A stretch of DNA of 64,000 bases, taken from NCBI GenBank assembly GCA_029706075.1, contig JAINUG010000054.1, positions 4,811,074 through 4,875,073 on the forward strand, given 5' to 3'. The notes beneath the pieces were generated by a model. The model saw only the letters and a list, made by a program, of their open reading frames with translations, ran no database searches and had not been told where the DNA came from. The stretch comes from Aldrovandia affinis. Lineage: Eukaryota; Chordata; Actinopteri; Notacanthiformes; Halosauridae. Shown here one piece after another: positions 9,401 through 11,106 of the stretch (position 1 is the first letter of the stretch; each line of letters starts with the position of its first letter). A program made the position numbers and the translations under genes.

Positions 9401-11106
9401 CACCTGCCGCGACCTGAAGATGTGCCACCCCGACTGGAAGAGCGGTGAGTTTACTCTCTGGCTGCATTCTGCCCCTCTCGTTGTGGCAAAAATCACGGTC
9501 GAAGAGAAAAACAAGCATTACATTACATTACATTACAGGCATTTAGCAGACGCTCTTATCCAGAGCGACTTACAGTTTACATTTCTTTACAATCCATTTA
9601 TACAGCTGGATATTAGCTGAAGCAATTCAGGTTAAGTACCTTGCTCAAGGGTACAACGTAGCGATACGCAAACGCAACGAGACGAACGCGCGAACACAAA
9701 GATACCCAATACAAATTGGGATTCGCGTGACAGTGCACACACAATGCGTGCTTCGCACATGCGGACAGCTTCGGTTTCACGTGCCCGGCAATGCCTGAGC
9801 CGATTTCTGGGTTCGCGTCCACTAGTGGCGGTCGGCCACAGGCTGCGACATGGTGCTCTTATGCCCGCGCCCTTCGAACCCCCCCGTTACCTGACCCCGG
9901 GCCTTGTCTCCTCCCCTCCCCCTCTGCAGGAGAGTACTGGATCGACCCCGACCAGGGCTGCTCTCAGGACGCCATCAAGGTTTACTGCAACATGGACAAC
10001 GGAGAGACCTGCATCTACCCTATCCAGGCTGACATCCCCCAGAAGAACTGGTACACCAGCAAGAACATCAAGGAGAAGAAGCACGTCTGGTTCGGCGAGG
10101 CAATGAGCGACGGCTTCCAGGTGAGCCCCGCGAGGACGTAGCAGGCCAGGGGAGAAATCGTTTGGGTCTCCTTCGGTCTCCGTGCCTCGCCTTAACGCGG
10201 CGCTAACCTTCTTTCTCTTTCTCTCTCTCGCTCTCCCTCTCTCCCGTGCCCACCCGCCGCAGTTCGAGTACGGCAGCGAGGGCTCCAAGCCCTGAGGACG
10301 TCAACATCCAGCTGACCTTCCTGCGCCTCATGTCCACCGAGGCGTCCCAGAACATCACGTACCACTGCAAGAACAGCATCGCCTACATGGACCAGCAGGC
10401 CGGCAACCTCAAGAAGGCCATGCTCCTGCAAGGCTCCAACGAGATCGAGATCAGAGCCGAGGGCAACAGCCGCTTTACGTACAGCGTCGCCGAGGATGGC
10501 TGCACGGTGAGTCCCCCTTCTTCTCCCCCGTCCCCCAGATATCGGCAATGTAGTGTTACAGTTAAGGAACTGGGCTTGTAACTCAGAGATTGCAGGTGTG
10601 ATTCCCAGGAGGGACACTAAACGCTTAAATGTAGGATCACGTTGAGCTCTGTCTGGGCTCAGGCCGCAAGCACCTGAATCATTGAATGTTGTAGACCTGG
10701 GCTATTCAGCTGCAGTAAGCCATCGAGTGGAAGTGCCATTTCCTGGTAAGACGGCAGCATACAGGTGGCGAAAAGAGCAGTCATACCTTTTCAACAGAAA
10801 TCGGTCGAAACGCAGCCACATATGGAGTGTTAAGGCAGTGGATTGTGGGTAAAACTGGGAAGGGGATAGTTGCGATGAAATGGGATTGCATGGAAAATGC
10901 GACGAAAACCTGGGCGAAGTCACTGATCCCTGCTTTCTCCTTTCTTTCTCCTCCCACAGTCACACACTGGCGGATGGGGCAAGACAGTCATCGACTACAA
11001 GACAACAAAAACATCCCGTCTGCCTATTATTGACATCGCTCCTATGGACGTTGGTGCACCCGATCAGGAATTTGGCATTGAAGTTGGCCCAGTCTGCTTC
11101 TTGTAA
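436..11106 (+). CDS. col1a1: Collagen type I alpha-1 chain, 3' part of gene (22 exons)
   Basis: Encodes the C-terminal about 803 residues (after discounting one extra base in the 10263 exon) of a fibrillar procollagen chain: Gly-X-Y triple helix, C-telopeptide and C-propeptide. The chain is made in the endoplasmic reticulum, trimerises through the C-propeptide and is secreted as the main fibril of bone, skin and tendon. Every helical exon starts with a complete Gly codon and is 45, 54, 99, 108 or 162 bp, the fibrillar collagen pattern. The last four coding exons (283, 191, 244, 147 bp) match human COL1A1 sizes except for one extra base. A single 108-bp exon at 1820, where COL1A2 has two of 54 bp, and eight cysteines in the C-propeptide favour alpha-1 over alpha-2. 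Synteny with ppp1r9b agrees. Fish can carry two alpha-1 paralogues (a and b, the latter also called alpha-3); which one this is cannot be told here. The 5' exons lie left of the window. Confidence 0.96.
584..682 (+). CDS. col1a1: col1a1 helix exon, 99 bp, with GFPGER integrin site
   Basis: Thirty-three codons from acceptor cctag to donor gtgaga. Codons at 593-610 give GFPGER, the motif known in human alpha-1(I) as a high-affinity binding site for alpha2-beta1 and related integrins. The exon ends in NDGAK, as in human. Confidence 0.94.
1119..1226 (+). CDS. col1a1: col1a1 helix exon, 108 bp
   Basis: Thirty-six codons with unbroken Gly-X-Y, including [15 protein letters not shown], which matches human almost exactly. 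The acceptor follows a CT-rich microsatellite (1079-1110). Donor gtaagt. Confidence 0.95.
1820..1927 (+). CDS. col1a1: col1a1 helix exon, 108 bp (fused 33/34)
   Basis: Thirty-six codons including [10 protein letters not shown] and [11 protein letters not shown]. In human COL1A1 this stretch is one fused 108-bp exon, whereas COL1A2 has two 54-bp exons; the fused form supports the alpha-1 assignment. Acceptor ctcag, donor gtaggt. Confidence 0.95.
2426..2479 (+). CDS. col1a1: col1a1 helix exon, 54 bp
   Basis: Eighteen codons, [18 protein letters not shown], between acceptor tccag and donor gtgagt. The human counterpart reads [18 protein letters not shown]. Confidence 0.94.
2882..2935 (+). CDS. 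col1a1: col1a1 helix exon, 54 bp
   Basis: Eighteen codons, [18 protein letters not shown]. The acceptor ccccag follows a CT-rich tract starting near 2855. Donor gtaagt. It keeps the AGFAGPP block of human alpha-1(I). Confidence 0.95.
3121..3158 (-). repeat. SINE tail fragment in col1a1 intron
   Basis: The sequence tttagcagatgctcttatc followed by gacttaca is the reverse of the common fish SINE 3' tail (GTAAGTCGCT...AAGAGCGTCTGCTAAA). No head is attached. Confidence 0.6.
3316..3423 (+). CDS. col1a1: col1a1 helix exon, 108 bp
   Basis: Thirty-six codons starting [14 protein letters not shown] and ending PTGSPGPQ. The opening is nearly identical to human. Acceptor tgcag, donor gtatga. Confidence 0.95.
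3815..3868 (+). CDS. col1a1: col1a1 helix exon, 54 bp
   Basis: Eighteen codons, [18 protein letters not shown]. Acceptor gatag, donor gtaagt. The Y-position Lys and Arg are typical of this segment. Confidence 0.93.
4020..4073 (+). CDS. col1a1: col1a1 helix exon, 54 bp
   Basis: Eighteen codons, [18 protein letters not shown], one residue from human [18 protein letters not shown]. Acceptor tatag, donor gtaagt. Confidence 0.95.
4545..4706 (+). CDS. col1a1: col1a1 helix exon, 162 bp
   Basis: Fifty-four codons, the long exon expected at this place in fibrillar collagens. It includes [13 protein letters not shown] and [10 protein letters not shown]. The acceptor tcag directly follows a (CT)n tract at 4505-4541. 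Donor gtaagt. Confidence 0.95.
5028..5135 (+). CDS. col1a1: col1a1 helix exon, 108 bp, with collagenase cleavage site
   Basis: Thirty-six codons. Codons 5046-5069 read GPSGIAGQ, aligning with the human collagenase (MMP-1/8/13) site GPQG|IAGQ; the scissile bond would lie at 5057/5058. The P2 residue is Ser rather than the human Gln. The following [18 protein letters not shown] is essentially identical to human. Confidence 0.95.
6451..6558 (+). CDS. col1a1: col1a1 helix exon, 108 bp
   Basis: Thirty-six codons beginning [16 protein letters not shown] and containing [11 protein letters not shown], as in human. The preceding intron (5136-6450) is the longest in this part of the gene, but the protein joins PGPS|GEPGKQG without a gap, so no exon is missing. 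Confidence 0.95.
6693..6746 (+). CDS. col1a1: col1a1 helix exon, 54 bp
   Basis: Eighteen codons, [18 protein letters not shown]. Acceptor gccag, donor gtaagc. Human has GAPGAEGSPGRDGSPGAK. Confidence 0.94.
7099..7138. repeat. (CA)n microsatellite in col1a1 intron
   Basis: A CA dinucleotide run of about 40 bp, slightly interrupted at its left end, sits 60 bp before the acceptor of the 7199 exon. Confidence 0.9.
7199..7306 (+). CDS. col1a1: col1a1 helix exon, 108 bp
   Basis: Thirty-six codons starting [10 protein letters not shown] and ending [12 protein letters not shown], closely matching human. Acceptor ttcag, donor gtaagt. A (CA)n microsatellite lies 60 bp upstream in the intron. Confidence 0.95.
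7703..7756 (+). CDS. col1a1: col1a1 helix exon, 54 bp
   Basis: Eighteen codons, [18 protein letters not shown], a near-perfect Gly-Pro-Ala run where human has [18 protein letters not shown]. The near-repetition could be slippage-prone. Acceptor tttag, donor gtacgt. Confidence 0.92.
7891..7998 (+). CDS. col1a1: col1a1 helix exon, 108 bp, with helical cross-link lysine
   Basis: Thirty-six codons. Codons from 7945 read [13 protein letters not shown]; the Lys at 7951-7953 aligns with the human helical Lys-930 (GIKGHRGF) that pairs with the N-telopeptide of a neighbouring molecule after lysyl oxidase action. Acceptor tgtag, donor gtgagt. Confidence 0.95.
8524..8577 (+). CDS. col1a1: col1a1 helix exon, 54 bp
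   Basis: Eighteen codons, [18 protein letters not shown]; human has GEQGPSGASGPAGPR in its later part. Acceptor cccag, donor gtgagt. Confidence 0.94.
8941..9048 (+). CDS. col1a1: col1a1 helix exon, 108 bp, last fully helical exon
   Basis: Thirty-six codons including [17 protein letters not shown], as in human (GRTGD). Acceptor gacag, donor gtaagt. Confidence 0.95.
9162..9444 (+). CDS. col1a1: col1a1 junction exon: helix end, C-telopeptide, start of C-propeptide
   Basis: 283 bp, the same as the human junction exon. It codes GVP plus four GPP triplets that cap the helix, then a telopeptide starting GGGFDMGF with the cross-link Lys of QEKAP (codon 9252-9254). The procollagen C-proteinase (BMP1) bond Ala|Asp in HYRADDANV would fall at 9284/9285. 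The propeptide follows with [16 protein letters not shown] and cysteines in RTCRDLKMC. The exon ends in phase 1; the split Gly codon joins to the 9930 exon (SGEYWIDP). Confidence 0.96.
9515..9657 (-). mobile_element. Truncated tRNA-type SINE (family A) in col1a1 intron
   Basis: It reads in reverse: an (ATTAC)n end, the tail tttagcagacgctcttatcc, the middle block ccatttatacagctggata, then the complement of the conserved core (ttaagtaccttgctcaaggg). The tRNA-like head is missing. The core and tail match the complete copies at 16526 and 44816. Confidence 0.8.
9930..10120 (+). CDS. col1a1: col1a1 C-propeptide exon, 191 bp
   Basis: 191 bp as in human. It codes [10 protein letters not shown] and [14 protein letters not shown], which carry the calcium-binding loop and three of the cysteines, then KNWYTSKN and [13 protein letters not shown]. 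Acceptor tgcag, donor gtgagc. Confidence 0.96.
10263..10506 (+). CDS. col1a1: col1a1 C-propeptide exon, frameshifted by one extra base
   Basis: 244 bp where the human exon is 243. From the acceptor the frame reads [10 protein letters not shown] and then hits TGA at 10293-10295. Dropping one base at 10290-10293 (CCCT) restores [20 protein letters not shown] and onward to EDGCT, which joins the last exon in frame. The restored part holds the conserved N-glycosylation site NIT and the Cys in YHC. The break lies in the chain-recognition sequence that sorts fibrillar collagen chains. Because both sides are highly conserved, I favour a consensus error; a real null or polymorphic allele is the alternative. 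Confidence 0.93.
10545..10618 (+). mobile_element. SINE head fragment (family A) in col1a1 intron
   Basis: The tRNA-like part only: gtagtgttacagttaaggaa, then ctgggcttgtaactcagag and a degenerate B box ending gattcccagg. It stops just after gggacact, so the core and tail are absent. Confidence 0.7.
10960..11106 (+). CDS. col1a1: col1a1 last coding exon and stop
   Basis: Codes [17 protein letters not shown] through [19 protein letters not shown] to the terminal GPVCFL and TAA at 11104-11106. The ending is nearly identical to human and supplies the eighth propeptide cysteine. Acceptor cacag. Confidence 0.97.

Follow-up and report, generated by a model that had tools for sequence, protein, structure and literature searches.

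Does the second-to-last coding exon of a fish type I collagen gene carry a real knock-out mutation, or does the assembly carry a base that the animal lacks? The question is raised by a fibrillar collagen gene whose 3´ half lies on the + strand of the window, the whole 64,000-nucleotide stretch of DNA analysed here. The window belongs to contig C2067; the assembly totals 1.22 Gb in 2,576 contigs. We found 22 exons of this gene in the window, from 436 to 11106: 18 triple-helix exons, all intact and 45-162 bp long (436..9048), an intact 283-bp exon that encodes the helix end, the telopeptide and the start of the C-propeptide (9162..9444), an intact 191-bp C-propeptide exon with an alpha-1-type Cys (9930..10120), a second-to-last coding exon of 244 bp (10263..10506), and an intact last coding exon of 147 bp that includes the stop codon (10960..11106). 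Given these lengths, phase is broken solely by the 244-bp exon. The first-pass annotation had counted all 21 other collagen exons as intact, and phase, splice sites and an ungapped helix alignment confirm that 21 of the 22 are. The 516 residues of helix encoded here match residues 500-1015 of rat alpha-1(I) with no gap, so no helix exon is missing from the window. The 19 further helix exons listed upstream of the window are all intact as well.

The broken exon

As assembled, the 244-bp exon is bordered by an AG at 10261-10262 and by GTGAGT from 10507. Frame 1 gives ten residues and then meets the TGA that the frame shift creates at 10293-10295, and the frame offset by one base stays open across the whole exon. 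The conserved continuation in this next frame (10294..10506, + strand) encodes 71 residues past the break that match Pfam COLFI (E 4.7e-31) and human COL1A1 (PDB 5k31, E 4e-37), with 63 of 70 aligned residues identical to the human chain. The first-pass annotation had described a 244-bp exon, a TGA at this position and a conserved continuation in the next frame, and the exon borders, phase and COLFI and COL1A1 matches bear out each part of that description. Upstream of the break, frame 1 has a third-position GC of 1.00, a value drawn from no more than 10 codons; downstream, the other frame reaches 0.94, compared with 0.37 and 0.49 for the two alternatives. Codon-position GC trained on the collagen helix was too weak to locate the break in this exon (exon 50; gains of 0.1 and 2.0), and homology and local third-position GC were therefore used to place it.

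Reading frames and an alignment with five paralogues put the extra base in the CCCT at 10290..10293 (+ strand). The six-sequence alignment contains an extra column that is filled solely by the window gene, and the surplus letter within CCCT cannot be pinned to one particular base. An error-prone context would be, for example, a long homopolymer; the C run here is just three long. The first-pass annotation had recommended comparison with the second col1a1 paralogue: the gene on contig C1792 of the same genome has an equivalent exon of 243 bp that is intact and lies between AG and GTGAGC.

The chain-recognition sequence comprises 12 + 8 + 3 residues, with Ala128 and Asp129 in its long part and Glu143 in its short part, and cysteines 152, 197 and 244 follow further on (PMC5353611, partial text). 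By our own mapping onto these numbers, the break would fall in the long part, after position 127 and before 128. A real break would cost the chain three of the eight C-propeptide cysteines together with the remaining petal region. A premature stop 211 bases upstream of the last exon junction is expected to lead to nonsense-mediated decay of the mRNA.

Identity of the gene and constraint on its coding sequence

The type I collagen genes of teleosts have undergone duplication (PMC4753508, partial text), and the fish alpha-1(I) and alpha-3(I) chains differ at a Cys/Ser site and at a Lys/Gln site (PMC8355665 section 9; PMC4753508, partial text). At the first site the window gene reads QGC and the C1792 gene QGS, a position that, by our own mapping, corresponds to the inter-chain cysteine site of these papers. 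At the second site, helix peptide T32/33 carries Lys in the same gene upstream of the window (GGPGAVGAKGNTGEPGR, locus L020, located by the looser of two patterns) and Gln in C1792 (GSTGPAGPQGATGEGGR). Since the window gene has Cys and Lys and the C1792 gene Ser and Gln, the window gene is, judged by these residues, col1a1a, encoding alpha-1(I), and the C1792 gene is col1a1b, encoding alpha-3(I). The window helix also scores 814 bits against rat alpha-1(I) and 615 bits against alpha-2(I), with the 516 residues ungapped against the former. The gene shares with teleost col1a1a (PMC4753508, partial text; PMC8355665) the common exon layout, the alpha-1 Lys marker and the eight C-propeptide cysteines, all of which are present. 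It differs in that the unbroken C-propeptide frame expected of col1a1a is absent as assembled, interrupted by the one extra base at 10290-10293.

The closest match to the window gene in the genome is the C1792 gene, at 90% DNA identity, among seven matches listed with the window included; the other five fibrillar matches listed are more distant, at 74-81%. These five presumably resemble col2a1 (C1829, C1937), col1a2 (C2134, C2355) and another fibrillar gene. With the C1792 gene counted, there are at least six fibrillar collagen genes in the genome besides the window gene.

Between col1a1a and col1a1b, dN/dS is 0.253 for the helix, 0.077 and 0.177 for the two exons before the broken one, 0.183 for the part past the break and 0.138 for the last exon. 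The values past the break and in the last exon thus lie within the 0.077-0.253 found elsewhere in the gene. To the extent that such ratios can tell, there is no sign of decay, and a very recent loss would leave no trace in them.

Frame breaks next door and elsewhere in the assembly

A second frame break is present in the same window, in the spinophilin gene (ppp1r9b), also on the + strand. Exon 1 of this gene (26812..28222, 1,411 bp) has high third-position GC in frame 1 in windows to 27771 (0.87-1.00) and in frame 2 from 27712 (0.85-0.98), and a one-base shift at 27764-27765 gives a log-likelihood gain of 177.7. Towards its end, exon 1 matches PDB 3egg, a spinophilin entry (E 6.9e-10). The C1792 copy of spinophilin is a single open frame of 521 residues, with 70.7% identity to the part before the window break and 65.3% identity, in the same frame, to the part after it. 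For the first 313 residues of the window exon, Pfam gave nothing and the PDB nothing convincing; we take them to be spinophilin on the basis of the C1792 copy. Exons 2 (61339..61471, 133 bp), 3 (62173..62293, 121 bp) and 4 (63482..63586, 105 bp) are intact. In the 4,183 coding bases of the window, one-base frame breaks affect two exons out of 26. We also observed that col1a1 and ppp1r9b are near each other on both C2067 and C1792, a pairing that fits duplicated blocks from the teleost genome duplication.

Similar breaks were found in conserved genes unrelated to these two. A search for the potassium-channel family gave 75 listed matches at 30 loci, 14 of which have a frame of at least 400 aa that includes the pore motif. 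One of these 14 (L039, contig C1458) switches frame inside an exon, with 71% identity before the switch and 80% after it. A further channel match, on C1882, contains one TGA. Among the POU genes, a POU3F2-like gene (L061, contig C1335) switches frame ahead of the POU domain; another candidate, L062, was rejected, as its apparent break looks like an exon boundary. For the protocadherins, 150 of 178 candidate first-repeat matches were scored, and open frames of at least 720 aa were found for 108 of these and shorter ones for 42. We opened one intact gene and six short-framed ones (L064-L069; contigs C2011, C1950, C1765), and in each of the six, the match to the intact gene continues in a different frame as soon as the first one ends. 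There are seven such shifts, one in each of five genes and two in the sixth, and most are opposite in direction to the shifts in the window.

These counts correspond to approximately one break per 7.4 kb in the protocadherins, assuming a 2.4-kb exon, and, for the channel and POU3F genes, to approximately one per 15 kb (two breaks in some 29 kb, an estimate from 14 channel genes and 7 hand-picked POU3F genes). Forkhead open-frame lengths, which mix one-exon and many-exon genes, were left out of the rate. At the sampled rate of one break per 7-15 kb, 0.3-0.6 breaks are predicted in the coding sequence of the window, and two were observed; by our arithmetic, the chance of another break in the window, given the one for which it was selected, is about 0.24-0.43. 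The 99 helix exons listed for the six other fibrillar collagen genes (8,289 bp) were all unbroken, in a set from which the exon finder missed some. In one of these genes, the col1a2-like gene on C2355, an otherwise intact helix exon has a GCA (Ala) where a triple-helix Gly is expected (L018, ~5852-5854), which may be erroneous, a variant, or a genuine substitution in that copy.

Origin of the extra base

We consider it highly probable that the assembly consensus is wrong by this one base and that col1a1a is otherwise a normal, working gene. When a consensus is called from long reads with many errors, single-base insertions and deletions are left behind, and one such indel could have hit the codons of the chain-recognition stretch, giving rise to an apparent frameshift and the TGA. 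We infer that the assembly was built on reads of this kind and that the extra base is absent from the animal. Long-read vertebrate contigs were reported to be of Q30-35 before polishing, and their commonest errors were short indels that caused frameshifts (PMC8081667, partial text). The breaks described here are like those errors in that single frame changes are scattered in otherwise intact conserved genes and in that homology picks up at once in another frame. A consensus error is further supported by the presence of a break in just one of 22 exons, by conservation past the break and dN/dS values within range, by the second break next door in spinophilin, and by the breaks in the unrelated potassium channel, POU3F2-like and protocadherin genes. 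An extra assembly base had already been named as the likelier cause in the first-pass annotation, a view that these similar breaks and the intact related copies strengthen. Several observations count against it. Two breaks in the window are rather many where 0.3-0.6 are expected, the 99 listed helix exons of the six other fibrillar genes include no broken one, some of the protocadherin breaks could be real pseudogenes, and three C in a row do not make a classic homopolymer trap.

In our view it is improbable that the fish carries a real null allele, in heterozygous or fixed form, whose mRNA would be expected to decay so that less alpha-1 chain is made. Such an allele could escape notice, given that zebrafish heterozygous for a col1a1a null are without skeletal abnormalities (PMC11607041, partial text), and for this reason phenotype gives no argument against a heterozygous null. 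By the same token, the 'severe' effect foreseen in the first-pass annotation would apply to homozygotes at most. The genome also has an intact alpha-3 gene, and the more specific proposal that a null of what is apparently the sole alpha-1(I) gene segregates harmlessly, since the other allele and alpha-3 suffice, is a shade less probable again. However, a real null needs a rare event in one of the most constrained genes, and it leaves both the spinophilin break next door and the breaks in other conserved genes unexplained. Real knock-outs at one per 7-15 kb are not credible, because they would mean thousands of dead genes. If the window stop were real, it would have a premature stop in col1a1a in common with the zebrafish null alleles (PMC11607041, partial text), but those are induced mutations studied in living fish, whereas the one in the window is a base call of the assembly.

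It is very improbable that this copy has lost function and is decaying while a sister gene substitutes for it, a possibility that the first-pass annotation had kept in play. The duplication of teleost type I collagen (PMC4753508, partial text) and the presence of at least six other fibrillar collagen genes in the genome would provide candidates, but the window gene is of the alpha-1 type and its closest listed match is an alpha-3 gene. Moreover, further lesions are absent from the 21 other exons in the window and from the 19 listed helix exons upstream, and constraint appears to be retained past the break (dN/dS of 0.183, against 0.077-0.253 elsewhere). We regard as equally far-fetched a bypass of the lesion by splicing, in which a cryptic acceptor at 10295-10296 or 10310-10311 would remove the broken start of the exon and restore the frame. 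Either acceptor leaves an open exon, of 210 or 195 bp, in phase with the last exon; yet neither shows a pyrimidine tract when judged by eye, some of the chain-recognition stretch would be among the residues lost, and the regular acceptor at 10261-10262 looks strong.

With a consensus error as the preferred explanation, the locus serves mainly as a caution. An apparent knock-out or pseudogene from this assembly needs read support, since frame-breaking indels occur in the sampled genes about once every 7-15 kb of coding sequence, a figure that is partly an estimate. Annotation would probably truncate both col1a1a and ppp1r9b in the window.

Side searches covered bacterial and viral contigs and the remaining window contents. 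When bacterial contigs were screened for stray fish DNA, the sole match was a weak one of 24 residues at 50% in a Rhizobium contig (L001), which looks like chance, and a search of viral contigs found no relative. Ten other long frames in the window were scanned against Pfam, with a single match that fell short of its cut-off. The window contains seven UnaL2 LINE 3´ elements (9533-9586, 15612-15664, 16689-16742, 44976-45029, 47323-47376, 53490-53543 and 54311-54364), one of which sits in a col1a1a intron, and tRNA-like genes at 47396-47468 and 54218-54293 adjoin two of them. The long spinophilin intron harbors a 39-bp satellite with 57 copies (39555-41803) and a G-rich 52-bp minisatellite (56557-57209), and a tandem array of 10.8 copies of a 28-bp unit, at 100% matches (61822-62122), ends 50 bases before a spinophilin exon.
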